A DNA stretch of 64,000 bases from Salinibacter grassmerensis (GTDB lineage Bacteria > Bacteroidota > Rhodothermia > Rhodothermales > Salinibacteraceae). Under the pieces are notes generated by a model that was given only the letters and a program-made list of their open reading frames with translations, was not told the DNA's origin and ran no database searches. The position numbers and the translations under genes are program-made. Location: contig NZ_CAMTTF010000003.1 of the NCBI RefSeq assembly GCF_947077765.1, forward strand, positions 558,001 through 622,000, written 5' to 3'. Shown in pieces: positions 22,797-54,420 of this stretch. Each line of letters opens with the position of its first letter. Positions within the stretch are counted from its first letter, which is position 1.

Positions 22797-22867
22797 CGCA
22801 GAGGTCGCGACGTACAACCGTGTCGGCTCGCGCCCTACGCTACACGGATCAGAAGTGGCTAGGCCTT

Positions 22868-29080: not shown

Positions 29081-29683
29081 CTACAGCACCCTCCGGAGGA
29101 TGGACTGCAGGCGCTCATGGTCGTCGTCAAGGAGTCGGCTCAGGGCACGACCGGCCCGCACGAGCGGCTCGCGGCCCCCACGCTCCCCTCCGTGAGCCGC
29201 GTGGATGCCACGGAGGACGGCCACGAGAAGGTCGTCGACGGGCACATCCGGGTCCGGATGCTCGACCAGGGTGCGGAGGAAGTCGTAGGGCGCCGCGAAG
29301 GCTCGCACCTCCTGGTCGGTGCAGGGCGCAACGAAGTCGTGGATGTTCGGGGGCTGCGGCGGAAGGGTCTGCCGGATGTCCCCGTCGGGCCCCCGGCACG
29401 CCAGCATCTGCGCACGGACGGTGGTGCGGAGGAGTTCATCGACCATCGGCATCTCTTGTGCCCGCTCCTCAGACGAGAGGCCCAACGCGACGGCCTGCCG
29501 ATTCGTGTCGTAGCTCCCCGTCTCCACATGGCTCACCAGCCCGTAGAGCGTCGGCGCCCCGTCCGGCTCCACCCGCACCCAAGCGCCAAAGTCGGGCGCG
29601 TCGGCCTCTTCGTACACCTCGGCCACAAATTGTCGAGTGGTAGCCTCGATCACTTCCCCCACCGCGGCGGTTTCGTCGGCCAT
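29081..29683 (-). CDS. HAS-barrel domain protein of the stand-alone cyanobacterial type
   Basis: 200 residues from ATG 29683. The N-terminal half (VGEVIEATTRQFVAEVYE, FGAWVRVE, LYGLVSHVETGSYDTNR, ALGLS) follows the HAS-barrel pattern known from the N-termini of HerA helicases. The remainder (LPPQPPNIHDFVAPC, FLRTLVEHPDPDVPVDDLLVA) follows the free-standing family found mainly in cyanobacteria. The family's role is not established; a HAS barrel usually serves as a platform for oligomer contacts. It sits 95 bp behind mazG, on the same strand. No nuclease or ATPase motif is present. The assignment rests on my recall of the family layout and should be tested. Confidence 0.65.
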   Translation of the reverse strand: MADETAAVGEVIEATTRQFVAEVYEEADAPDFGAWVRVEPDGAPTLYGLVSHVETGSYDTNRQAVALGLSSEERAQEMPMVDELLRTTVRAQMLACRGPDGDIRQTLPPQPPNIHDFVAPCTDQEVRAFAAPYDFLRTLVEHPDPDVPVDDLLVAVLRGIHAAHGGERGGREPLVRAGRALSRLLDDDHERLQSILRRVL

Positions 29684-29778
29684 CGTTTGCGTACGTTCAT
29701 TTCGAAAACCAGAAGCGCTTGCGTCTCGGACAGATGTGTCTTCCAGGGCAGAGTTGCTGCGGCCCGCCCCCGCACGAT

Positions 29779-30624
29779 TCACCCCTCTCTCGCCTTCGCG
29801 TCCCGCCAGAGCCGACGCACCTCCGAAAGGTCCGCCTCGTCGATGGACGTTCCCTGCCCCGACAGGCGTGACTCCACGTCCTGAAAGCGGCCTGTGAACC
29901 GGTCGGTGGTTTCCCGCAGGGCGTTTTCCGGGGTCACGTCTACGTACCGCGCGTAGTTTACCAGGGCGAACAGCAGGTCGCCAAACTCTTCCTGCCGCCG
30001 TTCTGAAGACCGGTCCCCCTCCACGGTATCCCGGAACTCCCCCAGCTCCTCCTGGACCTTGTCCCAGGCCTCGGCTCGATCCGGAAACTCGAAGCCCACG
30101 CCCGCCGCCTTCTCCTGCGTGCGCTGGGCCCGCAGCAGGGCCGGCAGTTGGGCCGGCACCCCGTCGAGCACCGAGGCCTCCTCCGGCCCGCCGTCCTTCT
30201 CCTGCTGCTTGATCTCTTCCCAGGAGGCCGCCACCGCGTCCGCATCGCCCGTCGCCGCGTCCCCGAAGACGTGGGGGTGGCGCCGGACGAGCTTGTCCGT
30301 TTCCGCCTCAATCACGTCCGCAAGCGTGAACCGCCCTTCCTCCTCCGCAATGACGGCGTGGAAGAGCACGTGCAGAAGCACGTCGCCCAACTCCTCCGCC
30401 AGTTCGTCCCAGTCCCTATGGTCGATGGCCGCGACCACCTCGTAGGCCTCTTCAATGAGGAGGTGCTTCACCGACTCGTGGGTCTGCTCCCGATCCCACG
30501 GGCAATCACGCCGGAGCTGCTTGACGATGGCCGACAGGTCCGCGTACGCCTCCAGCCGCTCGGCGGGCTCGGCGAATTGGGACTCGTAGATCTTGTCGGC
30601 AGAGGACGCGTCGGGGTCGGGCAT
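29779..30624 (-). CDS. mazG: MazG nucleoside triphosphate pyrophosphohydrolase
   Basis: 281 residues from ATG 30624; the longer frame upstream has no protein-like features. The first MazG domain shows CPWDREQTHESVKHLLIEE with EEAYEVVAAID and the second metal site ELAEELGDVLLHVLFHAVIAE, giving the E-x-x-E and E-x-x-D sets that bind Mg2+. The second MazG copy is at DKVQEELGEFRDTVEGD with EEFGDLLFALVNYARY near residues 195-240. It hydrolyses (d)NTPs, including damaged ones, to monophosphates, and in E. coli lowers ppGpp through MazE/F control. It is the first gene of a likely three-gene minus-strand group. Confidence 0.95.
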   Translation of the reverse strand: MPDPDASSADKIYESQFAEPAERLEAYADLSAIVKQLRRDCPWDREQTHESVKHLLIEEAYEVVAAIDHRDWDELAEELGDVLLHVLFHAVIAEEEGRFTLADVIEAETDKLVRRHPHVFGDAATGDADAVAASWEEIKQQEKDGGPEEASVLDGVPAQLPALLRAQRTQEKAAGVGFEFPDRAEAWDKVQEELGEFRDTVEGDRSSERRQEEFGDLLFALVNYARYVDVTPENALRETTDRFTGRFQDVESRLSGQGTSIDEADLSEVRRLWRDAKAREG

Positions 30625-30826
30625 GGATTCGGAGAGCGACGGGGGACTGCTGTGGTGAATACTATCCCATACAGGTCTACAGCCAGAGGCGTCGCGTGTT
30701 TGTGTGTGACAGGCGTGTCGGGCCCCTCGCCCACGGGAACATCGCAGGGAATGTGGCGTCAAAACAGATGCGCAAAGATATATTCTGGGGCACTTAGATT
30801 ATCTAGCGCACCGCTCTTTCACGTAT

Positions 30827-31192
30827 GGGGATGACACGGCTTCGACGTGTAGTAAGCGTGCAGCAGACTGACCTGCCGAGCAGCCTGATTCGCTTCGTAA
30901 AACCTGTCAGGAACTGTAACTGCGGACGATTATTCGTACGCGATGGCGGCGTAACAGCCCCCATCTGTCTCACGTCGCTCCTGGCCCTTGGGGAGCGTGA
31001 GACATCGACAAAAAGGGTGTAGCCGCCGCGTTCTCCGACTGCGGATGCGCCGGTGAAATTTAATCAGTCTCAGCGCCGCCCTGGCCTCGTGGATGGGCAG
31101 ACGAGCGACGTGAACCGCTAATGCATCCACTATGCAGGTAGAGGTTTGCCTGTGCGGCTACACGGACCCGGGTTCGACTCCCGGCATCTCCA
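30827..31192 (+). ncRNA. ssrA: Transfer-messenger RNA (tmRNA)
   Basis: The 5' end GGGGATGACACGGCTTCGAC at 30827 is the conserved tmRNA start. The 3' end has a T-arm-like GGTTCGACTCCCGGCATCTCC. The first seven bases (GGGGAUG) pair with CAUCUCC at 31185-31191 to make the acceptor stem, followed by the discriminator A at 31192. The CCA is not fully encoded and must be added. The tag frame begins at a GCG resume codon at 30922 and reads ADDYSYAMAA, then TAA at 30952-30954. It rescues stalled ribosomes with SmpB. The gene stands alone and has its own terminator 17 bp after the end. Confidence 0.97.
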
Positions 31193-31208
31193 CAACGCTT
31201 TTCCCCTG

Positions 31209-31246
31209 AACCCCGTAGGCCCAACGGCTTACGGGGTTTTCTTTTT
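31209..31246 (+). terminator. Rho-independent terminator of ssrA
   Basis: The arms AACCCCGTA (31209-31217) and TACGGGGTT (31230-31238) pair perfectly around the 12-base loop GGCCCAACGGCT, followed by TTCTTTTT. It starts 17 bp beyond the mature 3' end of the tmRNA, as expected. Confidence 0.93.
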
Positions 31247-32140
31247 GGCCCGAGTGTATTGTTGGGTGCATTCGCCCAAAATCCCGGCTAGGTCCGAAGA
31301 CGGCCCTTCATGCAGGGTTTCATGCTGGCGACCGGACAAGGGATTACCCTGAACGATAAATGACTTGAACAATGGCGGCCTGAACGTACGGATCCGCACT
31401 GGTCCCCGGCCGCTGCATTTCCCTCTTCCCCTCGGCGCTTCAGATCCAGACTTCCAGATTCCAGAGGTCTCTCTCCATCGACGAGACTGATGAGAACGGA
31501 ACGACGTACTACCGTGTTCGTCACCACCGCCGCCGAGGACGATGGAGAAACCACTGAAAGCGACACGTCAAATGAAGTAGAGACGGCATCCTTCTCCAAT
31601 CCGCCGGACCGGCCGTAAGACTGACACTCACTCTTGATGTCTCGCCTTTTTGATTTGCTGACACCTTTAGAAACGGTAGTTTTTGAAGTAAGAAGCATCC
31701 ACCGCCTCCTCCATGGAGCGAGGTTCAGGGCAAATGAGGTGTTTCAGAAGTTGTCATGGTGGTGTGGCCTTATGGGTAGCTGTTATCCGCTCAGAACGGC
31801 TTTTCGATCGGGGAGTCCCGCTGAGACAAGCACGAACCAGGACAAGTACGCAGTACGCTATCCATTCCACTGACTTGCCAGATTGCCTCATGGCGGCGTG
31901 TGCACTGTGGAAAGAGGCAACTACGGCAGAAAAGGGCCCGCTGTCACCTTTCCTTTGAATTTTCGGTCGTGACGTAGCCTCGGGTCCGCGCCAATAAGGT
32001 CATGAGGACTGTATCTGTCCTCCATGTCCGCCATGTTCTGGATGATCATCTGCCGTACAACCAATTTTGCGTTCTCAGCGCTGAAGGCCGATTTCCCCTA
32101 TTCTGCATCAACTGATACCACTCTCGGTTGCCGACACGAT

Positions 32141-37460: not shown

Positions 37461-40400
37461 CTAACGTTCGACAGGAGTGGACACGGAATCCTCGTAAGGG
37501 GGGTCGGCCTCCCCTGACCATTCGTTGCCGAACCATGCCCGATTTACAAACACGTAGGCTGCGGGGAGAACCACCAGCGTAAGCAGCGTGGCGCTGAAGA
37601 GCCCACCGACCATCGGTGTGGCGAGCCGCTTCATCACCTGCGCGCCAGTGCCGGTCGAAAACATGAGCGGAAGAAGCCCGAAGAACGTGGTGAAGACCGT
37701 CATAAGCAACGGCCGTACGCGCATCACGGCGCCCTCCTCCAGTGCTGACCGAAGGGCACTGAGGGACGTTAGCCTCCCTTCCTCACGGTACCGCTCGATG
37801 GCCTCGTCGAGGTAGACGAGCATCACGACCCCGGTTTCGGCGGCCAGGCCCGCCACGGCGATCACGCCCACGCCCACAGCGATGCTCATGTTGAACTTCA
37901 GCCCCCACAGAAGCCACGCCGCCCCCACGAGACAAAACGGCAGCAGACCCAGCAAGAGGGCCGCCTTGGCCGCACTGCGAAAGTGCAGGAGTAGCAGCAG
38001 AAAAATGATGGCGAGGGTAATCGGCACCAGCAGTTGGAGGCGCTCATTGGCCCGTTCCATGTACTGGTACTGCCCGCTCCACGTCAGCGAATATCCGGCC
38101 GGGAGGTCCACCTCCTCGCGCACCACCTGCCTGGCCCTTTGTACGAACGAACCGATGTCTGTCGTCTCCGTGAGGTCCACGAACACCCAGGCATTGGGGC
38201 GCGCCTGCTCGCTTTTGATCATCGGCGGGCCCTCCACACGTTCCAGTGCTGCCAGTTGGCCGAGGGGCACCTGTCCACCCGTCGGCAACGGCACGCGCAC
38301 ACTGCGGAGGGCCGGCAGGTTGTCGCGCAGGCCGCGCGGGTAGCGTACGTTCACCGAATAGCGCTCCAGGCCCTCCACGGTTGTAGTCACGGGCATCCCT
38401 CCCACCGCCGTCTGGATGATGTCCTGCACGTCCCCAGTGGTGAGGCCGTAGCGGGACGCCGCGGACCGGTTCACGCTGATGTCGAGGAAGGTGCCCCCCA
38501 TGACCCGCTCGGCGTAGACCGACTGTGTCCCGTCCAGCGGCGACAACGCCCCCTCCACCCGCTCCCCGATCTGCTCTAGCGTAGATAGGTCTGCCCCGGC
38601 AATCTTAATGCCCACCGGCGTCTTGATCCCCGTGGCCAGCATGTCGGTCCGCGCCTCAATGGGCTGGGTCCACGCGTTGGTGAGTCCTGGAATCTGCAGC
38701 GACTGATCCAGCTTGCTAATCAGCTTCTCCTTCGTCATCCCCTCTCGCCACTTGCTTTTTGGCTTCAGAATGATCGTCGTCTCCAACATCGACAGGGGTG
38801 CCGGGTCGGTGGCGGTCTCTGCCCGCCCCGCTTTGCCGAACACCGACTCTACCTCCGGAAAACTCTCGATAATGCGGTCGGTCTGCTGCAGGAGTTCTTT
38901 CGCCTTCTGCGGGGACACGCCCGGCAGGGTGGTGGGCATGTAGAGCAGGTCGCCCTCGTTCAGCGGCGGCATAAATTCCGATCCGATCTGGGGGAACGGC
39001 ACCACCGGCTCCCCCAACGTCATGCGCTGCAGGGGCAGAACGGTGACCCCCAGAATCAGCACGGCCCCCACCAGCACGGTTCCGGGAAACCGCAGCACCC
39101 GCCGAATGACGGGCCGGTAGACACGGATAAAGAACCGGGCGATTGGGTTGTCCGCCTCCCGCCGGATCCGGCCTTTGACGAACGTCACCATGAGGGCAGG
39201 CACCAGCGTCACCGCCAGCAGCGACGCCGCGGCCATCGCAAAGGTTTTCGTGAACGCCAGCGGCCGAAACAGCCGCCCCTCTACCTGCTGCAGGGTAAAG
39301 ACCGGCAGAAAGCTCACCGTCACGATCAACAGCGAAAAGAAGAGACTCGGCCCCACCTCTTTCGCCGCGGCCACCACCGCCTCCACCCGCGTTTCGTTGT
39401 CGAGTTGCGAATGTCGACCTCCGAGCTCTGATGGCTCAGAAATCCCCGGAATCCAGCTGAGCACCCTCCGCACCCCACTCACCTCCCCGTCTTCGGTCTG
39501 CCCATCCTCAATCTGATCATCCTCAATCTGCCCATCTTCTTCTCGCAGCCGCTCGATGTGTTTGTGCGCATTCTCTACCATCACGAGCGACGCGTCCACC
39601 ATTACGCCAATCGCAATCGCAATGCCGCCCAGGCTCATCACGTTCGCATTGATCCCGAGCAGGTACATCACCAGTAGGGACACGACGATGCCCACCGGCA
39701 CCGTCACCAGTGCCACGAACGCGCTTCGCACGTGCAACAGGAACAACATCACGACAACGGCCACCACCAGCATCTCCTCCGCCAGTTGCGTCGTCAGCGT
39801 GCTAATCGCCCGTTCGATGAGGGGCCGCCGGTTGTACTCCGGCTCAATGTAGACGCCCTCCGGAAGGCTCGCCCGGAGCTCCGTAATTCGGTCCTCCACC
39901 CGCTGAATGACCTCCATCGCGTTCTCTCCGGACCGCATCACCACGATGCCGCCCACGGCTTCCCCCTCCCCGTTCACATCCGCGATGCCGCGCCGCAGCT
40001 CCGGCCCCGCCCGCACCTGCGCCACGTCGCCAACCGTGAGCGGCGTTCCCTGATCGGACCGGAGCCCGACGGCTCGGATGTCGCCCATTCCCTCCAGGTA
40101 TCCCTGCCCTCGCACCACAAACTCCCGCTCTCCCATCTCCATGATCCGCCCTCCCACGTCCTGATTGGACCGCTTGAGCGCCCGCCGCACATCCTTGATC
40201 GTCGCGTTGTAGGCCGATAGCTTTTGCGGGTCCACCACCACCTGATACTGCTTCTCGAAGCCGCCGACCGACGCGATCTCGGAGACGCCCTGCACGCCCT
40301 GCAGCTCATAGCGCAAGAAGAAGTCCTGTATCGACCGGAGCTCTGCTAGGTCGTGCCGCCCGGTGGTGTCGCGGACGGTGTACTGGTAGACCCACCCTAC

Positions 40401-40805
40401 ACCGCTCGCGTCGGGCCCCAGCGCTGCCGAGGCCGCTTCCGGCAATTCCTCCTCTACCGTACTCAGCGACTCCAGGACCCGGCTCCGCGCCCAGTAGAGG
40501 TCGGTCCCGTCCTCGAAAATCACGTACACGAACGAGGTCCCAAACATCGAGTAGCCACGCACCGTCTTGGCGTACGGCACCGACATGAGGGAAGTCGTCA
40601 GCGGATAGGTGACCTGCTCCTCCACTACCTTCGGTCCCTGCCCCGCATACTCCGTCTTGATGATCACCTGCGTCGGGGACAGGTCCGGAAACGCGTCTAC
40701 CGGCATGTTAACGGTTGCCCAGGTCCCCCCTGCCGCCAGCAACAGCGTCACCAGCGCCACTAGCAGCCGGTTGTGGGCACTCCATTCGATAATCGATTTC
40801 AGCAC
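37461..40805 (-). CDS. cusA: CusA/CzcA-family heavy-metal efflux RND pump
   Basis: 1114 residues, a full-length HME-RND proton antiporter. Twelve helices are in the usual two blocks. The first helix is followed by the periplasmic head and by the helix-4 GxxxD motif (GIAIAIGVMVDASLVMVENA), with a matching GVGVIAVAGLAAETGVVMLVYLDE in the second half. The three Met residues used by CusA to bind Cu(I)/Ag(I) appear to be kept in LLYMPTTLPG, LSMLETTI and RTDMLATGI, which suggests monovalent metal. A cytoplasmic loop after residue 430 holds a hydrophilic insertion built of five-codon repeats (see 39483-39542). It forms a tripartite pump with the adaptor upstream and the TolC-like protein. Confidence 0.95.
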   Translation of the reverse strand: MLKSIIEWSAHNRLLVALVTLLLAAGGTWATVNMPVDAFPDLSPTQVIIKTEYAGQGPKVVEEQVTYPLTTSLMSVPYAKTVRGYSMFGTSFVYVIFEDGTDLYWARSRVLESLSTVEEELPEAASAALGPDASGVGWVYQYTVRDTTGRHDLAELRSIQDFFLRYELQGVQGVSEIASVGGFEKQYQVVVDPQKLSAYNATIKDVRRALKRSNQDVGGRIMEMGEREFVVRGQGYLEGMGDIRAVGLRSDQGTPLTVGDVAQVRAGPELRRGIADVNGEGEAVGGIVVMRSGENAMEVIQRVEDRITELRASLPEGVYIEPEYNRRPLIERAISTLTTQLAEEMLVVAVVVMLFLLHVRSAFVALVTVPVGIVVSLLVMYLLGINANVMSLGGIAIAIGVMVDASLVMVENAHKHIERLREEDGQIEDDQIEDGQTEDGEVSGVRRVLSWIPGISEPSELGGRHSQLDNETRVEAVVAAAKEVGPSLFFSLLIVTVSFLPVFTLQQVEGRLFRPLAFTKTFAMAAASLLAVTLVPALMVTFVKGRIRREADNPIARFFIRVYRPVIRRVLRFPGTVLVGAVLILGVTVLPLQRMTLGEPVVPFPQIGSEFMPPLNEGDLLYMPTTLPGVSPQKAKELLQQTDRIIESFPEVESVFGKAGRAETATDPAPLSMLETTIILKPKSKWREGMTKEKLISKLDQSLQIPGLTNAWTQPIEARTDMLATGIKTPVGIKIAGADLSTLEQIGERVEGALSPLDGTQSVYAERVMGGTFLDISVNRSAASRYGLTTGDVQDIIQTAVGGMPVTTTVEGLERYSVNVRYPRGLRDNLPALRSVRVPLPTGGQVPLGQLAALERVEGPPMIKSEQARPNAWVFVDLTETTDIGSFVQRARQVVREEVDLPAGYSLTWSGQYQYMERANERLQLLVPITLAIIFLLLLLHFRSAAKAALLLGLLPFCLVGAAWLLWGLKFNMSIAVGVGVIAVAGLAAETGVVMLVYLDEAIERYREEGRLTSLSALRSALEEGAVMRVRPLLMTVFTTFFGLLPLMFSTGTGAQVMKRLATPMVGGLFSATLLTLVVLPAAYVFVNRAWFGNEWSGEADPPYEDSVSTPVER
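39483..39542. repeat. 15-bp tandem repeat inside cusA
   Basis: Four units of 15 bp, imperfect, with CTGCCCATCCTCAAT at 39498, CTGATCATCCTCAAT at 39513 and CTGCCCATCTTCTTC at 39528; the first unit (39483) is more diverged. On the minus strand they encode EDGQI, EDDQI, EDGQT and EDGEV, an acidic insert in a cytoplasmic loop of the pump that is much shorter in E. coli CusA. Confidence 0.85.
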
Positions 40806-40853
40806 AATAAATGACCAGTTGCGTCAACGAGTCAACGACCAGTGGACCTGTTG

Positions 40854-42293
40854 CTAGTGTTGGTGGCCGGCACCCTGCATCGACGTGCTATCGTCCATCG
40901 CCGCCAGTGCGCCGCTTAGCCGCGCCTCCGAATCAATGAGGAACTGCGCGCTCGTTACCACCCGCTCGCCCCCGTCCAGTCCATGGAGCACCTGCGTGCG
41001 TCCGTCCGCCGAGCGTCCCGTATGCACCGGCACCGGCCGGAAGCGCCCGTCCCCGAGCGCCCGAATCACAATCTCCCGCTCGCCGCTGCTTACGATGGCC
41101 GAGGACGGGACGACCGGGCGGGGCGTCGCCTCGCCTCCCGACAGCCGGACTGTCGCGTACATCCCCGGTTTCAGTATCCGATTCGGATTCGGCACCGCAA
41201 TGCGGGCCCGCACCGTGCGAGTGTCAGTGTCCACCTCGTCGTAGATGTACTCGACCCGCCCGGTCACCGTCCGCCCCGGACTGTAAGGCAACTCCACCTG
41301 CGCCCGGCTACCTACGTCGATCCAGGACAGGTCTTGCTCGTAGACGTCCACCATGAGCCAGAGCGGACTCAGGCCGGTGATGTGAAAGAGCGTCTGCCCC
41401 GGCGAAAGCTTTTCTCCCTCCGTGATTTTCTTCGTCGTCACGGTGCCGGTGGACGGGGCAGTAAACGTGAGCGTCCGCATCGGCGTCCGCGTCTCTTCCA
41501 GGCGCTTGATTTGATCCTCGGAGATGTCCCAGTAGCTGAGCCGACGCCGGGCCGCGTCCACCAGTCGCTGGGCGCCGTCGTCCGAGCCAAGCCGGTCGGC
41601 CGTCCGCAACGCGGCCAAGTACTCCTCCTGCGTCGCCACCAACTGCGGACTGTAAAGGTCAAACAAGGGCTCGCCTTTCTGCACCCGCGCCCCCTCGTAG
41701 TCTACGTGCAGCGTCTCCACCCAGCCCCCTACCTTCGGCGCTACCGCCGTCGCAAGGCGCTCGTTGGCCTCGAACCGCCCGGTCGTGCGCACCGTGCGGG
41801 CCAGCGGCTCCACCGCAACGGTCTGTGACCGCACGCCAATGTTCTGCATTGTCGCTGGCGAGACCTTAACCGTGCCCCCCTCCTGCTCGCCTACCGGGGT
41901 CCGGGTCAAATCCATGCCGCAGATGGGGCACTGCCCAGCCTCGTCGCGGACGATGTCTGGGTGCATCCCCCCTTGGTAAACGTACCCGTCCCCATCGGTG
42001 TCGTACGTCGCCAAACCGGCCGCCTGTCCGCTTGAGGATCTGGCCCGGCCCGTGGAGTCGTCCTCCATGGTCATCTCACCGGTGGAGTCGGCCCCCGTGC
42101 CCATCTCGCTGGAGCCATCCATGCTCGCCATGTCGTCGTGGGACGAGTGCGCCGCCGGCTCCACAACGTATGGCCCGCCGTACCACACCACAGCCCCGCC
42201 CCCAACAACGAGGCCGACGAGCAATGCAAGGCCGGCAATCACACCCGTGCTGCTAGCAACTGATCGAACGCTTAACATCATGTCACTTCGCAT
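40854..42293 (-). CDS. cusB: CusB-type efflux periplasmic adaptor with heavy-metal-binding domain
   Basis: 479 residues from ATG 42293 (ATGs at 42281 and 42278 are also in frame). The N-terminal membrane anchor is VIAGLALLVGLVVGGGAVVWY, followed by an acidic, Met/Ser-rich linker. Then comes a heavy-metal-binding domain (YVYQGGMHPDIVRDEAGQCP, ICGMDLTRTP; the M-H-P and C-P-I-C-G-M ligands). After it is the HlyD-like core: barrel-sandwich (RFEANERLATAVAPKVGG), a helical hairpin, and a beta-barrel (GTVTTKKITEGEKLSPGQT). It links the CusA pump to the TolC-like channel and hands metal on. The stop lies 48 bp before cusA. Confidence 0.93.
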   Translation of the reverse strand: MRSDMMLSVRSVASSTGVIAGLALLVGLVVGGGAVVWYGGPYVVEPAAHSSHDDMASMDGSSEMGTGADSTGEMTMEDDSTGRARSSSGQAAGLATYDTDGDGYVYQGGMHPDIVRDEAGQCPICGMDLTRTPVGEQEGGTVKVSPATMQNIGVRSQTVAVEPLARTVRTTGRFEANERLATAVAPKVGGWVETLHVDYEGARVQKGEPLFDLYSPQLVATQEEYLAALRTADRLGSDDGAQRLVDAARRRLSYWDISEDQIKRLEETRTPMRTLTFTAPSTGTVTTKKITEGEKLSPGQTLFHITGLSPLWLMVDVYEQDLSWIDVGSRAQVELPYSPGRTVTGRVEYIYDEVDTDTRTVRARIAVPNPNRILKPGMYATVRLSGGEATPRPVVPSSAIVSSGEREIVIRALGDGRFRPVPVHTGRSADGRTQVLHGLDGGERVVTSAQFLIDSEARLSGALAAMDDSTSMQGAGHQH

Positions 42294-42452
42294 GCGGTAG
42301 AAGTATGCGGTAAAAGAAGTCTCGGAGGGCGGTGTGGGAAGACGCTGGGGGAGCACACATGGGCTTTTTCCGCCCCCTTCGGATTTCCCGCCCTTGATTG
42401 GGCCCGCCTGTAATCGAGCCCGCCTATAACGAAGAACCGCTCAAGTTAGAGC

Positions 42453-43802
42453 TTACTCGGCCGCGCCGGTGAGGTCCACCCGTCCTGCCGCCCGCTCCCA
42501 CTTCGCTTCGGTTTTGAGAAGGCGCGTGTGGACGGACGCCCGCTGAAGCCGGAGCTGAAACAGTGTCCGCTCCGCGTCGAGCAGGTCCAAAAAGTCGCTC
42601 TGCCCAGTCTGGTAGCCGCTGAGGGTCGTTTCGAGGGCGGTTTCGGCCTTCGGAAGCAGCGTCTCATCCAGCAGCGTCAGCTGCTGCTCCCGCCGCTCCA
42701 TCTGCTGTTGAAGGTCGGACAGCCGCGTGCGCAGCTCTAGCCGGAACGAGGCCAGTTCCGTCCTGGCCCGCTGCCGCTCGATCTCCGCTTCCTGGATCGC
42801 TGCCGTCTGTTTACTGCGCCAGAGCGGCACCTTTATGCCGACGCTCAAGGCCAGCGCGTCGCGGCCGTTCATCGCAGGGGTCAGGTCGGCCGGCGCGATG
42901 TCGAAGTACTGCACGCCGACAGTAACGTCCGGCCATTGCTCCTTCTTCGCGAGCTCGGTTTCACGCTCGGACCGCTCGATGCGGCGCTGAATCTTCGTTG
43001 CTTCCGGGCGCCGGTCGAGGGCCCGGGCGGGCTCGACGGGGTCCGTCTCGGGCCGGGTGCCGATCTCGGCCACGGGATCGCGCCGCGCAAGGCCCTCTTG
43101 CCCCGTTAGCCGAGACAGCGTCTGCAGCGCCGACTGCCGGTCGGCCGCTAGCCCTTCGAGGCGCGTCTCCAAACGCTGACGCTCGATCTGGGCCTTTAAG
43201 ATGGCCGATTGTCCCTCTTCTCCGACCTCGTACTGCGAGGTCGCTGCTTGCTCGAACTGCTTCAGATCGGCCTGAAAGCGACGGATGGAGCGCTCATGAG
43301 CCTGCACCCGGACGAGGGTGTAGTAGGCCCGCCGGATGCGAAGGGCAAGGTCCTGCTCAAGGGCGTCCGCATTTGCCGCGGCGACGTCAGCCCCGAGGTC
43401 TGCCACTGTCCGGCGAAGGGAGCGCTTACCGGGAAACGGAATTGCCTGTTGGACGCGCCACTGCGTACGCTGCTCGCCCCGCGCCGTCACAATTGGAAAG
43501 GAGAAGACCGTGCCTCCGACGGTAGGGTGGGGGAGCGCTCCCACCTGATCTCCTCGTTTCTCACGGGCGTCGCTGCGGAGCCGGGCCGCCCGTAGGGATG
43601 GGTTTCCCTGAGCGGCAGCGTGAAACAAAGAATCCAGGCGTAGCGGGGGCGTTGCCGAGGCGTCGGCAGTCGTAGAATCGAGCGGTGTGGGGTCGAGCAG
43701 GGCCGGGGGGACAGTGTTGGGCTGAGGCTGGGCAGCAACGGCCTGTACCAGCAAGAACCCCCACAGGCCTACGGCCCCCATCCAAAATGGGCGACGTGAC
43801 AT
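42453..43802 (-). CDS. TolC/CusC-family outer-membrane efflux channel
   Basis: 449 residues from ATG 43802, which gives a signal peptide (MGAVGLWGFLLVQAVAAQPQ). The longer frame to 43841 is not needed. Two TolC repeats are visible: LDSLFHAAAQGNPSLRAARL with long coiled coils (RRFQADLKQFEQAATSQYEV), and the second half with KEQWPDVTVGVQYF followed by ALSVGIKVPLW. The C-terminal coiled coil ends TLSGYQTGQSDFLDLLDAER. No lipobox Cys is seen, so it is not acylated like CusC. It is the outer-membrane exit of the metal pump; the gap to the adaptor gene is about 160 bp on the same strand. Confidence 0.93.
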   Translation of the reverse strand: MSRRPFWMGAVGLWGFLLVQAVAAQPQPNTVPPALLDPTPLDSTTADASATPPLRLDSLFHAAAQGNPSLRAARLRSDAREKRGDQVGALPHPTVGGTVFSFPIVTARGEQRTQWRVQQAIPFPGKRSLRRTVADLGADVAAANADALEQDLALRIRRAYYTLVRVQAHERSIRRFQADLKQFEQAATSQYEVGEEGQSAILKAQIERQRLETRLEGLAADRQSALQTLSRLTGQEGLARRDPVAEIGTRPETDPVEPARALDRRPEATKIQRRIERSERETELAKKEQWPDVTVGVQYFDIAPADLTPAMNGRDALALSVGIKVPLWRSKQTAAIQEAEIERQRARTELASFRLELRTRLSDLQQQMERREQQLTLLDETLLPKAETALETTLSGYQTGQSDFLDLLDAERTLFQLRLQRASVHTRLLKTEAKWERAAGRVDLTGAAE

Positions 43803-43910
43803 CAATCGGGAATGGCATCGGAACGGGTAGACGAAAACCACACGGAGCCGACGGCGTCCGTGTCTAGTTCCCGGATCGCCGGTGTCAGCTCCGGGAAACC
43901 GATGCCAATG

Positions 43911-44372: not shown

Positions 44373-44440
44373 AGGTAAGTAAGACGCTCAACCCTCCGCT
44401 GATTGTTTCCTGCAGGACCGCGGAACGAATCTTTTTTCCC

Positions 44441-44482
44441 ACTTGTGGTTCTCCATTTGTCGTTCTCCACTGCCGATTCCCT
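44441..44482. repeat. 14-bp (2x7) tandem repeat before the efflux operon
   Basis: Three units of 14 bp: ACTTGTGGTTCTCC (44441), ATTTGTCGTTCTCC (44455) and ACTGCCGATTCCCT (44469). Each splits into two heptads. The array begins about 70 bp upstream of the His-rich protein start codon (44372), in the probable promoter or leader. Confidence 0.7.
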
Positions 44483-45018: not shown

Positions 45019-45066
45019 GCAATGGAGCATGTTTGCAGTGGCGCATGTTCGGAGTGGCGCAGATCC
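45019..45066. repeat. 16-bp imperfect tandem repeat
   Basis: Units GCAATGGAGCATGTTT (45019), GCAGTGGCGCATGTTC (45035) and GGAGTGGCGCAGATCC (45051). They lie between the efflux operon and the receiver gene. No function is known. Confidence 0.65.
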
Positions 45067-45911: not shown

Positions 45912-48900
45912 TCAGGCCGTCTCGGCCTGCCTGGCCAGCGGAAGCCGGACGGTCACCCGCGTCCCTTCCCCTTCCGCGGTGTCCACCTCGATCGTGCCGC
46001 CCATCTGCTGGGCCGCCTCCCGGGTCACCGCCAGGCCAATGCCGGTGCCCTCGTACTCCCGGCTCCAGCCCTCCGACGCCTGCCGGAACGGCTCGAACAG
46101 GCTCTCCGCCGCCTCCGGGTCCATCCCGATGCCGGTATCCTCCACCTCCAACACCGCCGCCGCCGCTCCCGTGGTCGCTTCCATGGCCGCCTGGCCCTTC
46201 TCCTGGCCGTTCTCCTCTTGGCCCTCCTCCTTTCGGCTCTCCTCCTGGCCGTTTTCCCGGTAGGTCCCCTCCTGGTAGGTCCGCACCCGAACGGTCCCCT
46301 CCTCGGTGTACTTGATCGCGTTGGACAGGAGGTTGCGAAGCACGATCTGCACGCCCCCCTCGTCGGCCTCGGCGGTGGCTGCGGGGCTGGTCTTCAGTTC
46401 CAGACCAACGCCTTTCTCCTCCGCCCTCGCTCGAAGTTCATCGGCGGCCCGGCAGGCCTGATCTTCCAGAGAAACCGGCCTGGACTCCATCTCCATCTGC
46501 CCGGCCTCCAGCTTGGACAAGTTCAAGACCCCCTCCAGGGTCTTCAGTAGGCGCTTCCCGCCCTGCTCGATCAAGTCTGCATACTTCGGGAGGGGACTGC
46601 CTCCCGGAAGCTCCAACTCGGCGAACTCGGTGCCGATCGCCTCCGCGAAGCCGATGATCGAGGTCAGCGGCGTGCGGATCTCGTGGCTCATGTTCGCGAG
46701 CATCGAAGATTTAAGCCGGGCGGCCTCCTCCGCCTCTTGTCTTGCCTCTTCAGCTCTGTCTTTTGCCACGAGAAGCTCGTCCTCTCGCTCGAGACGGTCC
46801 AGCACGAGGGCGGCGTAGCCCGCCAATACCTCCAGCAGGCGCAAGTCGAACGCCTCGACTCCCCCAGCCTCGAAGCTCCCGACCGAGATGAGGCCCCGTC
46901 CGCCCATCGGCACGTACGCTGTCGCCCGAATGTCCCCACGGTCCATTGCCTCCAACTCGGCAGAAAGATCCTCGAAGGCCCGCGTCTCTCCGGATCGGTA
47001 CGCCTCGGCCGCAGGCGTGTCCCCGTCGGTGTCGTAGGAGGGGCGCTCGGGCATTCGCTCCTTCACGACACCTGGCACGTGGGTAGGCACGAGCTCACCG
47101 CCCCTGGCGAGGCGGACGGTCGTGGCCTGGTAGCCAAGCGCCTGGCGGACAAGGCCTGCCAGCCGGGCACTCAAGTCCTCCGGGTCTTCGGCCTGAAGCA
47201 AGTGGTTGGTGGCTTCGTAGAGGCCCCCAAGCTTTTCCTGCCGCTCTTGGAGGGCCTCTTCTCGCTCTTTCCGTTCGGTGATTTCGATCCCAAAAGCAGC
47301 CACGCTTTCAACTTCGCCATCAAGGCCGGTCACGGGACTGTGCACGCGGAGGTAATGGGTTTGCCCTTCTTCAGTCTCTATTCGCTCCTCTAGCTCGGCG
47401 ACCTGTTTTTCCCGAGCAGCCGCCCGAATCGCCCGGTCCCGGCGCTTCCCGAGTTCTGGGTCCAGGGTTCCTCGCTCCCGGCAGTACTCCTCGTTGGTGC
47501 GCCCGAGAATCCACTCTCGAACCTCCGGGTCCTGCACGGACTGAGAGTTCACGTACTCAAATTCTGCCTCGGGGCTAAAGACGGCTAGATCGATCGGCGT
47601 TTGCTCTAGGATCTGCTCGTAGAAGTTTTTGGTGCTTCGAAGCTCCTCTTGCGTATCGCGGAGGGCCTGTTCTCGCTCCTTCCGCCCGGTGATGTCCTGA
47701 ATCGTCCCTCGGACCCTGGCGACTTTGCCCTCCTCGTCTTCGCCTTCCCACTGTGGCTTGCCCCGGGTGCGAACCCACCGTTCCTCGCCTGTCTCGGTCA
47801 CCAGACGAGCCTCGATATCGTAGGGCTCTCCGTCCTCGACCGCCGCAGCCAGTGCCTCTCGAAGCACCGGGCGATCGTCGGGGTGGTATGCCTCGATCGC
47901 ATCCTCCGCCGACTGGTCCGGGCCACTCGGATCCCCGTACCCGTAAATCCGGTGCACCTCGTCGGTCCACGTCACCTCACCGGACGCGACGTCGTACTCC
48001 CAGGCGCCGACGCTGGCAATCTCTTGGGCCCGCTCGAACAGGTCGTTCTGCCGCTCTAGCTCCTCCTTCCGGCGCTTCTGATCGGTGATGTCTTGGGAAA
48101 ACACAATCCCTGAGGTTACTGTCCCGTCCTCCCCCCGCACCGGAAGGGTCTGGACGCGGTAGTGGCGGCCCTTGTATTCCTGCTCAAATTCCGCCCGCTC
48201 CCCCTCCAGCGCCCGGCGGTAATGCCGCTCTTGCTCGCGGGCGAGCTTTTCGGGCAGGATGTCGCGAGGCCCGGCCCCGATGATGTCCTCCGGATCGCCC
48301 AGCACGCCGATCTTTTCCCCTCCGGCGAGCATGTAGCGGAGGTCTCGGCCGAAGAGGTAGGCCCCCCCATCCGGAAAATGCTCGATCAAGGTCTGATACC
48401 TTCTCTTCGCCCTGCGGAGAGACTTCTCCCGCTCTTTCCGCTCGGTCGTTACCTCGAAGTAGATAGCGAGCCCCCCGCCCTCGTTTGGGTACACCTGTTC
48501 GGCAAACCACTCGCCCAGGCCCGCATAGTATTCTTCAACTTCCGCCGGTTCCCTAGACTGCATCACCTCCCGGTAGGCCTCCTCAAATTCGGTTCCTTCC
48601 AGCCCCCCGAACACCTCCCAGACGCTTTTCCCGAGCATCTCCTCCTCACCCATTCCGTAGATCTTCTCGGCCTGGTCGTTGACCAGCGTGACCCGCCACT
48701 CCTCGTCCACTTCAATGATGCCGTCGGTAACCCGCCGGATGACCTCCTGCCGGCGGCGCTCCTCCTCCTTCCGCCCGGTGATGTCCTGGAGGGCACCGGC
48801 CACCTCCGTGACCTCTTCGCCCTTCATCTCGGCGCCGTTCGTTTCAACGCCGTTCGTCTCGGCTGGGGCACCGACGGAACGGACCCACCGCCGGTTTCCC

Positions 48901-51626
48901 TCCGCAGTCTCGATCTGAAGCTCCAGGTCGTAAGCCTCCCCCTCCTCAGTCAGCGCTTCTGTTGCTTCTGTTATTTTCTCCTTTGACTCCGGCGTGTAGA
49001 ACTCAAGGCCCGCCTCCAGGCTCACCTCCGCGGAGGGGTCCATCTCGTAAATCTCGTAGATCTTCTCCGACCAGGACACCTCTCCGGTCTGGAGATTCGC
49101 CTCCCACGCCCCGGCCAACCGCTGGGTCTGCTCCAAGAGGCTCTTCTGGCGGCGGAGCTCGCGTTTGCGCCGCCGCTCTTCGGTCACGTCTCGGGTCGTC
49201 CCGACGATCTGGCGCACCTCCCCCTCCACGATCACCGGCGCGATGCAGGTCGTCCAGTAGGTCATTGTCCCCTCCAGGGGCACCTCCTCTTCGTAGGTGA
49301 GCGGCTCTCGCTCGCGGGCGCACTTTCGGTATTTCTCCTCGATCTCCGCCCCGATCTCTTCCCCGAACACGTCCTGAGGGGACCGCCCGCAGAGATCCCC
49401 GCTACTGAGCCCGGTCTTTTTCTCGAAGGCAGGATTGATGCGCCGGACGGAGAATTCTTGGGTCTTCTCTTCACCTGAAAACTCTTCACTTACGGCTTCC
49501 CCGCCTGCAGCCTCCTTGCCCGCAGTCTCTGCGCCTGCGGCATCTGCGCTGTCTGTCACGTCTTCAGGCTCCACGTCGATGAGAAAGAGCGCGTCCTGCG
49601 CGTTTTGAAACAGCGTCTCGGCCTGCTGGAGGCGCCGCTCCCGCCGCTTCTGGCCGGTGATGTCGGTGTAGATGGAGAAGATCTCCGGCGGACCCTCCGC
49701 TGGCTGCCGCCCGGCTACCTGTAGCCGAAAGTCTCTGATCTCCCCACTGGCCGTCCTCCTGCGGACCTGGTGCTCGGACGGCTCCTCCTCTAGGGCTCGC
49801 CGGTCGATCTCGGCGGCCGCCTCCCGCCGGCCCGGCGGCACCAGGAGATCGTTCAGGTCCTGACCCTCTAGGTCCTTCCCTTCCAGATGTTTTCCCTCCA
49901 GGTCCCTTTCCTCTGAGTCCTGGCCTTCTGCTTCTTCCTGGCCGGCGCCGAAGGTCTTGACGAAAGCAGGGTTGGCCTCCTCAACGGTGGCCTTCCCGCC
50001 TTCCGCCCGGCACCGCACGATCGGGGACGGAAGGCTCTCGAAGAGCGTCTCCAGCCGGTCTCGCTCCCGCCGGAGCTTCCGCTCTGCTTCCTTTCGCTCG
50101 GTGACGTCCAGAAGCAGGCCCCGGAACAGGAGGGCCAGGTTCCCCTCATCCGCCTTTGAGGATTCGCCTGCCTCTAAGATCTCCGGCTGCGCAGACCCAA
50201 GAATCCACATCCGCTCTCCTCCCGACCGCTCGAACGGAAACTCCTGCTTCCACTCCGACCGGCCTTCTACCGACTCCTGCACTGACGTCAGGAACGCCTC
50301 CCTGTGACCCTCCGGGATGCGGCCTACGAACCGCTCGTATGACTGGCCGGGCCCGGAGGAAAGGCCGAGAAACGACTCGGCCCTCGCGCCTACGAACTCG
50401 ATGGAGCGTTCCCCGCCCGGGCCCGCCCGGAGCTCGAACGTCACGCCCGGCATGCTGTCGGAGATCGATTCCAAGCGGGAGGCCTGCTCCCGGCGCCGCA
50501 GCTCCTGCTCGGTCACGTCCTGTAGCGTCACGAGCCGACTGGCCGACGAGCGGCCAGCCGACAGGCGGTCTTCGCCCCGGCGGGCCACCGTTTCTACCGG
50601 CCGAACGTACCGGGCCTCTCCCTCGGTGCCGGTTACCTCCAGCACGTCTCCCTCCGGCACATTTCCTCCTGCTTTGCCCTCCCCTATTTCTTCCTTCCCC
50701 GGAAGATCTCTGTTCTCCTCCGCCCCCCTGCCCAGCGCCTCCGACAGCTCCGGCAGCGCCTCCTCCAGTAGCGTTCCTTCCAGGCGCCCCCCCTCCAGGT
50801 GCCTCTGGGCCGCTTTCTCTTGAAGGGCTGGAAAAAGCCGGGCCGCCGCCTGATTGTAGTTCCGAATCCGTCCGCCCCCTGACAGTAGCAGGCTCGGCCG
50901 CTCCGCCCGCCCGGCCTGGCTGGTCTCCTCTAGCTGCCCATCCCTCAGGGCCAGGGCCCCGAGGGCAAACGCCGCCACCCCCACCGGCTCGTGGCTGAGG
51001 TCCAGTAGGTACCCTCCCCCGGCGTACCCGATTGCATTGGCCCCGAGCGGCAGGGCCGTCAGCGCGAACAGGCCCGCCAGCTTCCGTCCCCCCACCCTTG
51101 CCTGCCGCAGCGGCTCGGACAGCATGAAAAAACCCACCGCCGCCAGGGCATAGGAAAGCCCCGCAGTTCCCCAGTAGATCCCGTGGTGGTCCACCGCAAG
51201 ATGACGGAACGGACTCGCCCCCCATTCGACCGAAAAGTACAGGCCGTGCCACCGGTTGGTCAGCTTCGCCAGCGTGACAACCGTAAAGACAGCAGCCCCG
51301 GCCCAGCGGGCGCCTCGGCTCCGGTGCAGCGAGCGGCCGCTGTAGGCGGAGCAGAGCCAAAGCCAGGTAAAGACCGTCCCGAAGCCAATGGTCAGGCCCG
51401 CCTCGTAGAAGGCCGTCTTCAGGCCGAGCCCTGGGGAGAGAAGCACCCCAACGTGGCAAAGGGCCCACAGACCGCTGGTCACAAGTAGACCGATCAGTCC
51501 CCGGCGCACGCCAGGAAGGGACACGCCCCGGGCCCGGAAGGCACTGGCCAGGCAGCCGGCCGCCGCGGCCGCGAAGACGAGCAGGTATAGCGGATATGCC
51601 GGGCCTCCGAAAAACAATGCGTCCAT
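45912..51626 (-). CDS. Giant 7TM-nine PAS-GAF sensor histidine kinase
   Basis: 1904 residues from ATG 51626. The first 230 residues are a 7-helix membrane sensor (AYPLYLLVFAAAAAGCLASA and following helices), resembling the HisKA-7TM region common in haloarchaea. Then come about nine PAS/PAC units, counted by PAC ends such as DVTERKEAERK, DITGQKRRERR, DVTEERRRKRE, DITGRKEEERR, VTTERKEREKS, DITDQKRRKEE, DITGRKEREQA and EITERKEREEA. A GAF domain (YEATNHLLQAEDPEDLSARL on) spans about residues 1465-1610. The HisKA H-box is MLANMSHEIRTPLTSIIGF (His near 1648), and the HATPase has NLLSNAIKYTEEG, DTGIGMDPEA and YEGTGIGLAVTREA. It should signal through the receiver at 45160. Low-complexity inserts (three arrays, listed apart) interrupt PAS units and the ATPase lid. 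Confidence 0.93.
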   Translation of the reverse strand: MDALFFGGPAYPLYLLVFAAAAAGCLASAFRARGVSLPGVRRGLIGLLVTSGLWALCHVGVLLSPGLGLKTAFYEAGLTIGFGTVFTWLWLCSAYSGRSLHRSRGARWAGAAVFTVVTLAKLTNRWHGLYFSVEWGASPFRHLAVDHHGIYWGTAGLSYALAAVGFFMLSEPLRQARVGGRKLAGLFALTALPLGANAIGYAGGGYLLDLSHEPVGVAAFALGALALRDGQLEETSQAGRAERPSLLLSGGGRIRNYNQAAARLFPALQEKAAQRHLEGGRLEGTLLEEALPELSEALGRGAEENRDLPGKEEIGEGKAGGNVPEGDVLEVTGTEGEARYVRPVETVARRGEDRLSAGRSSASRLVTLQDVTEQELRRREQASRLESISDSMPGVTFELRAGPGGERSIEFVGARAESFLGLSSGPGQSYERFVGRIPEGHREAFLTSVQESVEGRSEWKQEFPFERSGGERMWILGSAQPEILEAGESSKADEGNLALLFRGLLLDVTERKEAERKLRRERDRLETLFESLPSPIVRCRAEGGKATVEEANPAFVKTFGAGQEEAEGQDSEERDLEGKHLEGKDLEGQDLNDLLVPPGRREAAAEIDRRALEEEPSEHQVRRRTASGEIRDFRLQVAGRQPAEGPPEIFSIYTDITGQKRRERRLQQAETLFQNAQDALFLIDVEPEDVTDSADAAGAETAGKEAAGGEAVSEEFSGEEKTQEFSVRRINPAFEKKTGLSSGDLCGRSPQDVFGEEIGAEIEEKYRKCAREREPLTYEEEVPLEGTMTYWTTCIAPVIVEGEVRQIVGTTRDVTEERRRKRELRRQKSLLEQTQRLAGAWEANLQTGEVSWSEKIYEIYEMDPSAEVSLEAGLEFYTPESKEKITEATEALTEEGEAYDLELQIETAEGNRRWVRSVGAPAETNGVETNGAEMKGEEVTEVAGALQDITGRKEEERRRQEVIRRVTDGIIEVDEEWRVTLVNDQAEKIYGMGEEEMLGKSVWEVFGGLEGTEFEEAYREVMQSREPAEVEEYYAGLGEWFAEQVYPNEGGGLAIYFEVTTERKEREKSLRRAKRRYQTLIEHFPDGGAYLFGRDLRYMLAGGEKIGVLGDPEDIIGAGPRDILPEKLAREQERHYRRALEGERAEFEQEYKGRHYRVQTLPVRGEDGTVTSGIVFSQDITDQKRRKEELERQNDLFERAQEIASVGAWEYDVASGEVTWTDEVHRIYGYGDPSGPDQSAEDAIEAYHPDDRPVLREALAAAVEDGEPYDIEARLVTETGEERWVRTRGKPQWEGEDEEGKVARVRGTIQDITGRKEREQALRDTQEELRSTKNFYEQILEQTPIDLAVFSPEAEFEYVNSQSVQDPEVREWILGRTNEEYCRERGTLDPELGKRRDRAIRAAAREKQVAELEERIETEEGQTHYLRVHSPVTGLDGEVESVAAFGIEITERKEREEALQERQEKLGGLYEATNHLLQAEDPEDLSARLAGLVRQALGYQATTVRLARGGELVPTHVPGVVKERMPERPSYDTDGDTPAAEAYRSGETRAFEDLSAELEAMDRGDIRATAYVPMGGRGLISVGSFEAGGVEAFDLRLLEVLAGYAALVLDRLEREDELLVAKDRAEEARQEAEEAARLKSSMLANMSHEIRTPLTSIIGFAEAIGTEFAELELPGGSPLPKYADLIEQGGKRLLKTLEGVLNLSKLEAGQMEMESRPVSLEDQACRAADELRARAEEKGVGLELKTSPAATAEADEGGVQIVLRNLLSNAIKYTEEGTVRVRTYQEGTYRENGQEESRKEEGQEENGQEKGQAAMEATTGAAAAVLEVEDTGIGMDPEAAESLFEPFRQASEGWSREYEGTGIGLAVTREAAQQMGGTIEVDTAEGEGTRVTVRLPLARQAETA
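46185..46290. repeat. Repeat-built insert in the giant kinase ATPase domain
   Basis: Imperfect Gly/Glu/Gln-rich codons repeat between the N-box and G1 box of the kinase. The encoded stretch reads TYQEGTYRENGQEESRKEEG, then QEENGQEKGQAAMEATTG, before the fold resumes at VLEVEDTGIGM. Typical kinases have only a few residues here. The insert is in frame. Confidence 0.75.
49501..49560. repeat. 15-bp tandem repeat in a PAS unit of the giant kinase
   Basis: Four units of about 15 bp on the plus strand, among them GCCTGCAGCCTCCTT, GCCCGCAGTCTCTGC and GCCTGCGGCATCTGC. On the minus strand they encode a five-residue period (ADAAG, AETAG, KEAAG, GEAVS). The stretch is inserted in a PAS loop near residue 700 of the protein. 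Confidence 0.8.
49855..49915. repeat. 15-bp tandem repeat in an earlier PAS unit of the giant kinase
   Basis: Units of 15 bp that encode DLEGK, HLEGK, DLEGQ and related five-residue steps near residue 585. It is a hydrophilic insert in a PAS loop that other PAS units of the same protein lack. Confidence 0.8.
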
Positions 51627-51680: not shown

Positions 51681-51750
51681 GCAGTCGACCACTGAGGGCA
51701 GTCGAGTGCTGAGGGCAGTTGCGTATCGGTGAGCAGTCGGTTACCAGTGA
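51681..51750. repeat. 17-18-bp degenerate tandem repeat before the giant kinase gene
   Basis: Four units starting with GCAGT: at 51681 and 51698 (17 bp each) and at 51715 and 51733 (18 bp each). The first two share GCAGTCGA and end in CTGAGG; the last two end in GTGA. The array starts 55 bp upstream of the kinase start codon, so it lies in the promoter or leader. Confidence 0.65.
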
Positions 51751-51856: not shown

Positions 51857-51936
51857 GCTGCCACTTGTCAGTGCTGCCACCTGTCGGGGCTATCACTTGG
51901 CAGTGCCATCGCCTGGTGGGGATGTCATCTTGGAAG
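51857..51936. repeat. 16-bp degenerate tandem repeat, five units
   Basis: Units GCTGCCACTTGTCAGT (51857), GCTGCCACCTGTCGGG (51873), GCTATCACTTGGCAGT (51889), GCCATCGCCTGGTGGG (51905) and GATGTCATCTTGGAAG (51921). They follow one another with no spacers and become weaker to the right. They sit between the giant kinase promoter and the recombinase remnant. Confidence 0.8.
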
Positions 51937-53457: not shown

Positions 53458-53925
53458 CTACTCCAGGTCGAGGTCACCGGCCTCGAGGGTGTCTGCCTCC
53501 GGAGGACCCTCCGGGACGGGTCGCGCCGGAGCTCTCCCCTGACCCGACGGCCGCCGGGGCGGACGGATCATCTTCGGGTCAATACTGCCAGGAACAGGGA
53601 CGTTCACGATCTTTGGGTCTACGGTCGTATCTGGCCTGATAACCATCCTCCGGTCGACGGGTGGTTTTGGGCGTACTGCCTCCTCCATTGTCGTGTCTAC
53701 CGCTGCCGTGTCTACCGCTGCCGTGTCCACGGCCGAAGCACCTGGGGATACCAGCGGCGCCTCTGAAACCAGATCGTCCTCTGAATCGGTCGCGCCGTTG
53801 GCATTGGCAGCGCCGTTGGGATTGGGCGTGGGCCTAATTAGCTCTTGCGGAGAGCACCCCAGGGAGAAGCCCCCCAGAAAAACCCAAAGCACCAGCAGGC
53901 ACGGTAGGTGCCGACTTACGTTCAC
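53458..53925 (-). CDS. Lipoprotein of unknown function with five-residue repeats
   Basis: About 155 residues. The lipobox is LWVFLGGFSLGC, preceded by hydrophobic residues (PCLLVLWVFL). I chose the GTG at 53925 because it gives a normal-length signal; the frame is open to 54048. The mature part is Pro/Asp/Ala-rich and likely disordered: NPNGAANANGATDSEDD, then AVDTA, AVDTA, AVDTT from three 15-bp repeats, then Pro/Arg-rich segments with repeated D-P-K-I/M-x-x-P. It is probably anchored in the outer membrane or periplasmic face. No domain is recognised. Confidence 0.65.
   Translation of the reverse strand: MNVSRHLPCLLVLWVFLGGFSLGCSPQELIRPTPNPNGAANANGATDSEDDLVSEAPLVSPGASAVDTAAVDTAAVDTTMEEAVRPKPPVDRRMVIRPDTTVDPKIVNVPVPGSIDPKMIRPPRRPSGQGRAPARPVPEGPPEADTLEAGDLDLE
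53693..53737. repeat. 15-bp tandem repeat in the lipoprotein gene
   Basis: GTGTCTACCGCTGCC occurs perfectly twice (53693-53707, 53708-53722) and a third copy is imperfect (GTGTCCACGGCCGAA, 53723-53737). It encodes the AVDTx steps of the lipoprotein. Confidence 0.9.
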
Positions 53926-54420
53926 CCTGCCAGCTTTCGCCTCTGCGGTTTTCTCCTCACTGACGTTCGTCTCGCTAATTTCTATTTTGCTGATTCTGTC
54001 TTGATGGACGTGCTGGCGCAGGTTGACGCTCTGAGCGGTGTGTCTCAATCGCTGGGGGAAGGCTCCCGGAGAAAAAGATTCTCAAGGCGGGGGACCCTGC
54101 CTCGATCAGGGCCTGTGCCACATGGATCTGTGCGACGTGGACAGGTTTCTTTGAGAATCGTACTTGACTAACGAAGTCCACGCTCAGATATTGCCACCCT
54201 AAGACGCTACAGACCAGCAAGACGCCATAGGCCAGTCAGTCCCGTGACTCAGTCCTGTGGCGGCCGGTTGGCTGAACGCCAGCTGTCAGCGAACGCTAAA
54301 CATTGGCGCTCGTCAGCAGACCAGTCCATCCGGCGATTCAGGTTTCAAACTTTTGCGGGCACAGTGGACGCGTTCTGGGCGTGAGCCCGGCATGAGAGAT
54401 CTCTGCCAGTCAAGGCAACG

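Follow-up and report, generated by a model that had tools for sequence, protein, structure and literature searches.

The window, the whole stretch of 64,000 nt analysed here, carries at 45912-51626 on the minus strand a sensor histidine kinase gene of 1904 aa, whose domain order runs from a 7TM N-terminus through several PAS domains and a GAF domain to HisKA and HATPase_c. The source genome (3.78 Mb in 19 contigs, labelled G000) belongs to the Salinibacter/Salinivenus group, with Salinivenus lutea as its nearest named relative. It has more than 20 histidine-kinase paralogues with HisKA/HATPase DNA similarity to the kinase gene, which form a large, expanded family. An RND-type efflux operon (37461-43841, minus strand) lies downstream of the kinase and a response regulator; it comprises an AcrB-like pump, a CusB-like fusion protein with a heavy-metal binding domain and an outer-membrane channel. 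Four regions of the kinase, all on the minus strand, carry inserts with short repeats:

46161-46268, minus strand: insert 1, residues 1787-1822, a repeat-built extension of the predicted N box-G1 box beta-hairpin (TYQEGTYRENGQEESRKEEGQEENGQEKGQ...)
49854-49916, minus strand: insert 2 (loop A), in a PAS domain, additional copies of native EGKDL (RDLEGKHLEGKDLEGQDL); about 20 aa not found in orthologues
49479-49559, minus strand: insert 3 (loop B), in a PAS domain, AGAETAGKEAAGGEA, of borderline periodicity; about 26 aa not found in the Salinivenus lutea orthologue
48813-48860, minus strand: insert 4, in a PAS domain, ETNGVETNGAEMKGEE, with ETNGVETNG; about 10 aa not found in orthologues; marginal

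A sequence-only reading of this DNA had listed three arrays with five-residue or similar periods, and these stand up to different degrees. Array 1 (46185-46290) is a significant DNA repeat, but one of mixed period and not a clean 15-mer: TRF returns overlapping arrays with periods of 12, 15, 27 and 42 and scores up to 97, and its lag-15 DNA score is 17.5, where 30 codon shuffles of the ORF reach 14 at most. Loop A, listed at 49855-49915, is real at the protein level only. There, the lag-5 score of 49854-49901 (LEGKHLEGKDLEGQDL) is 7.8, and none of 200 local shuffles goes above 6.4, while its DNA repetition is at chance (best score 10, against a per-ORF null maximum averaging 11). Loop A is also absent from the TRF output at score 30, owing to divergence at silent positions: units 3 to 5 show 3 to 5 third-position differences between one another and 0 second-position differences; amino acids that are kept while silent sites drift hint at protein-level constraint, in the loop A array only. 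Loop B, listed at 49501-49560, is weak, since its protein score of 5.2 (49494-49538) lies near the 95th percentile of the null and its DNA repetition is not significant in a lag-15 scan against the codon-shuffled ORF; its repeat may be chance. A fourth region, insert 4, had been overlooked, and its DNA score of 13 at lag 15 marks the second-best place in the ORF, for a null in which the per-ORF maximum averages 11 and goes no higher than 14. Together, the three arrays and insert 4 are the top four short-period repeat regions of the entire protein. Chance repetition in low-complexity, GC-rich coding sequence would be in keeping with loops A and B, neither of which is significant as DNA, and with the borderline protein score of loop B. 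It is already refuted for insert 1 as DNA and for loop A as protein, both above all shuffles, and with inserted residues that orthologues lack and a genome-wide excess of arrays (below) we regard it as a very unlikely source of the inserts.

Insert 1 had been assigned to the ATPase lid region, and this assignment does not survive structural comparison. The spacing between N box and G1 box is 56 aa in the kinase versus 22-24 aa in 19 of 21 relatives and paralogues; of the exceptions, one has 29 aa, and the orthologue in genome G005, which we take to be Salinibacter ruber DSM 13855, has 40 aa. The alignment of the solved kinase 7z8n to the query domain stops at residue 168 and picks up again at 205, and AlphaFold2 gives the insert a pLDDT of about 50 between confident strands at 158-167 and 204-211 (query domain numbering). 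Because of this alignment gap and the predicted strands that flank it, insert 1 is placed in the beta-hairpin ahead of the G1 box, flanked by the pair of strands that lead there from the N box; by the same alignment and model, the ATP lid comes later and has no insert. The insert is acidic and predicted to be disordered. With it in place, the H, N, G1, F and G2 motifs are intact, their columns being invariant in an alignment with 20 relatives, and by sequence the protein would remain a member of the HisKA/HATPase sensor kinases. For the other two arrays listed, a location in PAS loops was right.

In orthologues, the kinase inserts are either missing or the same loops hold other repeats. Where orthologues have a single EAEG(K/Q)DLN, the kinase has a string of E-G-K-D-L units before the final DLN, which makes loop A a series of copies of the segment native to it. 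In S. ruber M8, the orthologue is encoded on plasmid pSR84; its loop A is without an extra copy, its ATPase hairpin has a different repeat (EDGDQEDGDQKDRDQEDG) and its loop B has GGASDGGASG. Adjoining it is a second plasmid-borne kinase with repeat-built inserts, SRM_RS17650 (pSR84, NC_014157, 18510-21791, minus strand), with AGRFEG several times, GREPN and GNETGG, as well as another long ATPase hairpin. Since orthologues have lengthened the same loops with different units, the growth was independent.

One possible explanation is that selection built the arrays, with longer acidic, hydrophilic loops being favored in a salt-in halophile and repeats offering the easiest route to them. The composition of the inserts, rich in E, G, Q and K, speaks for it, as does the fact that the pSR84 orthologue and SRM_RS17650 have the same loops extended with other repeats, and that loop A retains its amino acids while silent sites diverge. 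However, for most relatives 22-24 aa between N box and G1 box suffice, and intergenic DNA (below) contains arrays of the same size class, denser and with no frame preference, so that protein selection is unnecessary for making arrays. We consider this explanation quite improbable. The selection for hydrophilic, disordered loops proposed earlier is neither shown nor needed; the native segments that were copied are themselves hydrophilic and insert lengths vary freely among orthologues.

Repeat arrays reach well beyond the kinase. In a sample of 1.2 of the 3.78 Mb of the source genome, with codon-order shuffles over the whole ORF and in 25-codon blocks as controls, we count 10 arrays of period 15 against shuffled means of 2.0 and 2.4 (maximum 4) and 41 arrays of period 13-20 against means of 10.1 and 10.4 (maximum 16), an excess of 4-5-fold for both classes. 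The sequence-only reading had staked its repeat-generating process on an excess of 15-bp arrays over a shuffled control with the same codon use, and this excess is present in the 1.2 Mb sample and supports such a process. The excess is modest in the source genome, though: its 0.34 arrays per 10 kb fall inside the outgroup range of 0.1-1.3, and away from the window arrays are sparse in absolute terms. The window itself has 7 arrays of period 13-20 versus 0.3-0.4 expected, and 5 of the 7 fall at 43.9-54.4 kb, an interval picked after the data had been seen. Individual arrays in the window are:

44439-44471, no strand assigned: array with a 14-bp unit, 2.4 copies
45019-45061, no strand assigned: array with a 16-bp unit, 2.7 copies
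51681-51719, no strand assigned: array with a 17-bp unit, 2.3 copies, intergenic
51857-51906, no strand assigned: array with a 16-bp unit, 3.1 copies, intergenic
53692-53727, minus strand: exact 15-bp array, 2.4 copies, reading DTAAVDTAAVDT, in a probable lipoprotein ORF (53458-54048), with an exact DTAAV repeat

The array excess is far larger in S. ruber than in the source genome. Together, plasmids pSR35, pSR56, pSR61 and pSR84 (220 kb) hold 126 arrays with units of 13-20 bp, and 78 more lie at 234-356 kb of the chromosome (122 kb, around a known hypervariable island); array density in plasmids and island reaches 6 per 10 kb. This chromosomal region contains the kinase orthologue of DSM 13855, at about 260.7-264.3 kb. 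It matches metagenomic island 1 (249037-358080), which is described as having low coding density and many pseudogenes (PMC2800850); a text search of that paper does not find the word ‘tandem’. On pSR84 (NC_014157), the intergenic stretches 22164-23097 and 29139-31787 consist almost entirely of adjoining minisatellites, each with an unrelated 14-19-bp unit. DNA sets of 50-160 kb taken for comparison (from other genomes, a Rhodothermus plasmid, a Halobacterium plasmid and Salinibacter phages) contain 0-4 arrays each; the exception is G031, a distant relative in the order, where 100 kb hold 13 arrays of 13-20 bp and 16 of other periods. Given G031, repeat-rich genomes may have arisen more than once. 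G006, which is assigned to the same genus, is nearly array-free. Phages were weighed as carriers of arrays and set aside, with 3 arrays of 13-20 bp in 140 kb of Salinibacter phage DNA; tight coding or short residence could account for the low number, which is therefore not decisive for the mechanism.

Array units span 13-20 bp with a mode of 15, and exact complete duplications number 5 at 12 bp, 4 at 13, 13 at 14, 40 at 15, 7 at 16, 12 at 17, 7 at 18 and 2 at 19, where chance predicts none at lengths of at least 12 bp. The mode stays at 15 when the count is limited to annotated intergenic DNA (17 of 46 exact duplications), and the codon is therefore not its cause. The units are largely unrelated: 224 of 232 are distinct, 63 pairs have a 9-mer in common against a shuffled mean of 49 and maximum of 69, and no junction motif is evident. 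These features bear on a further explanation, in which the arrays stem from a dispersed mobile repeat family or from target-site duplications left by transposons or a Cas1-like integrase. Arrays do cluster in the island and the plasmids, which carry transposases, and some units recur side by side in G005. There, the 15-bp unit TGAACCTGTCGGTTC has a perfect inverted repeat (GAACC-TGTC-GGTTC) and occurs in 2-4 tandem copies at several nearby places (G005:C1:283505, 291318, 296057 and 299899), having probably spread by way of a duplicated element. Against a mobile origin stand the distinctness of the units, 9-mer sharing within chance, the missing junction motif, a unit length that spans 13-20 bp and a Cas1 gene found in neither G000 nor G005, and we hold this explanation to be most improbable. 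The first two of these features also dismiss a common unit family of the REP, MITE or CRISPR-like kind.

Junctions of the two-copy duplications (n = 72) carry homology of 0 bp in 34 cases, 1 bp in 8, 2 bp in 7 and 3 bp in 8, for chance values of 38, 21, 8 and 3. Microhomology is not required for these duplications; there is a small excess of 6-8 bp matches, and some events may use homology. Between G004 and its close relative G005, copy number shifts by whole units of 13-22 bp at loci other than the kinase (about 105 kb aligned). Ordinary slipped-strand mispairing between short prior repeats, as in common bacterial VNTRs, would make a special duplication step superfluous. Once an array exists, slippage fits the arrays of 3-7 copies and the whole-unit indels, and the tail of 6-8 bp junction matches also agrees with it, but the commonest two-copy duplications lack junction homology at close to the chance rate, and slippage alone does not predict the sharp onset at 14-15 bp. 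As a full explanation it appears unlikely to us.

Reading frame separates coding from non-coding arrays. The period is a multiple of 3 in 23 of 25 coding arrays versus 35 of 97 intergenic arrays (Fisher p = 5e-7). The basis of this contrast is the S. ruber plasmids, which have an annotated but incomplete gene table, since the automatic ORF calls for G000 and G005 are rough. The arrays in the kinase had been described as always in frame, which is due to a filter and not to the mechanism, as intergenic units of 13-20 bp have no preference for multiples of three.

We consider it probable that the kinase inserts are survivors of a lineage-wide, sequence-independent process that duplicates about 15 bp in tandem, with frame and fold as the filter. 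Against it speak the modest excess in the source genome, the near absence of arrays from G006 of the same genus beside their presence in distant G031, the lack of DNA-level significance for loops A and B, and the few 6-8 bp junction matches. Such a process in the Salinibacter/Salinivenus lineage would make tandem copies of random segments some 15 bp long (range 13-20), with no need for a specific sequence or prior short homology, and slippage would afterwards gain or lose whole units, so that the arrays act as minisatellites. Islands, plasmids and intergenic DNA would retain units of any length within 13-20 bp, and in genes only units that are a multiple of 3 would survive, in places where the fold tolerates them, such as PAS loops and the N box-G1 box beta-hairpin. 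The data show the excess, the size range, the independence from sequence and microhomology, the copy-number differences between relatives, the coding/non-coding contrast and the independent growth of loops; we infer the order, duplication first and slippage second, as well as the physical step. The latter would most likely be a break or paired nick with ends offset by about 15 nt, followed by fill-in and rejoining without Ku.

Several known activities were considered for this step and rejected. Ku-dependent end joining is out, as Ku occurs in 0 of 13 genomes of the genus, and so are Piwi/Argonaute proteins, whose guide lengths resemble the unit sizes but of which the genus has none. Integration by a Cas1 integrase or casposase, with its target-site duplication, falls with the absence of Cas1 from G000 and G005. 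Y-family polymerases occur in the array-rich genomes but also in array-poor G006, and hence do not distinguish them; the one on the second contig of G005 corresponds in place to that of plasmid pSR35, in line with our reading of G005 as S. ruber DSM 13855. In mammalian cells, fill-in at offset breaks yields small tandem duplications of the segment between the breaks, and microhomology is not needed in the main pathway; this pathway requires Ku80 and CST/Pol alpha-primase, and the overhangs studied were 43 bp and more (PMC8355091). The Salinibacter duplications resemble its products in being direct tandem copies with no requirement for microhomology, whereas their units are about 15 bp and the genus is without Ku. 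With Ku and Piwi missing from the genus and Cas1 from two array-bearing genomes, a fill-in step must use other enzymes. A more far-reaching possibility, which we regard as rather doubtful, is an undescribed activity independent of Ku, Piwi and Cas1 that nicks or cuts the strands about 15 bp apart, fills in and rejoins, with homology-free duplications as a major class of spontaneous mutation that diversifies islands, plasmids and sensor-kinase loops.

By TRF and lag scans, the arrays consist of head-to-tail units within the range of about 10-60 bp that characterizes minisatellites and VNTRs. They share with bacterial VNTRs their head-to-tail units of 10-20 bp, a copy number that varies between relatives and in-frame coding arrays, and differ in having hundreds of unrelated units of one narrow length class (mode 15, onset 13-14) in one lineage. 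Among open-licence papers we found no earlier description of tandem duplications in Salinibacter, which is weak evidence of novelty. A paper on spontaneous mutants of Rhodothermus marinus reports single-base duplications and deletions between 7-bp repeats.

If the lineage does make homology-free duplications of near-fixed length, the birth of minisatellites, usually seen afterwards, could be watched in a culturable organism. In the process, the reported decay of genes in S. ruber islands would also have a source, and part of the corruption described for island 1 could come from it. The arrays would serve as strain-level markers in a model of microdiversity, and would show by natural experiment which signalling-protein loops can be extended. 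That a single kinase has several repeat-built inserts would then need no appeal to selection.
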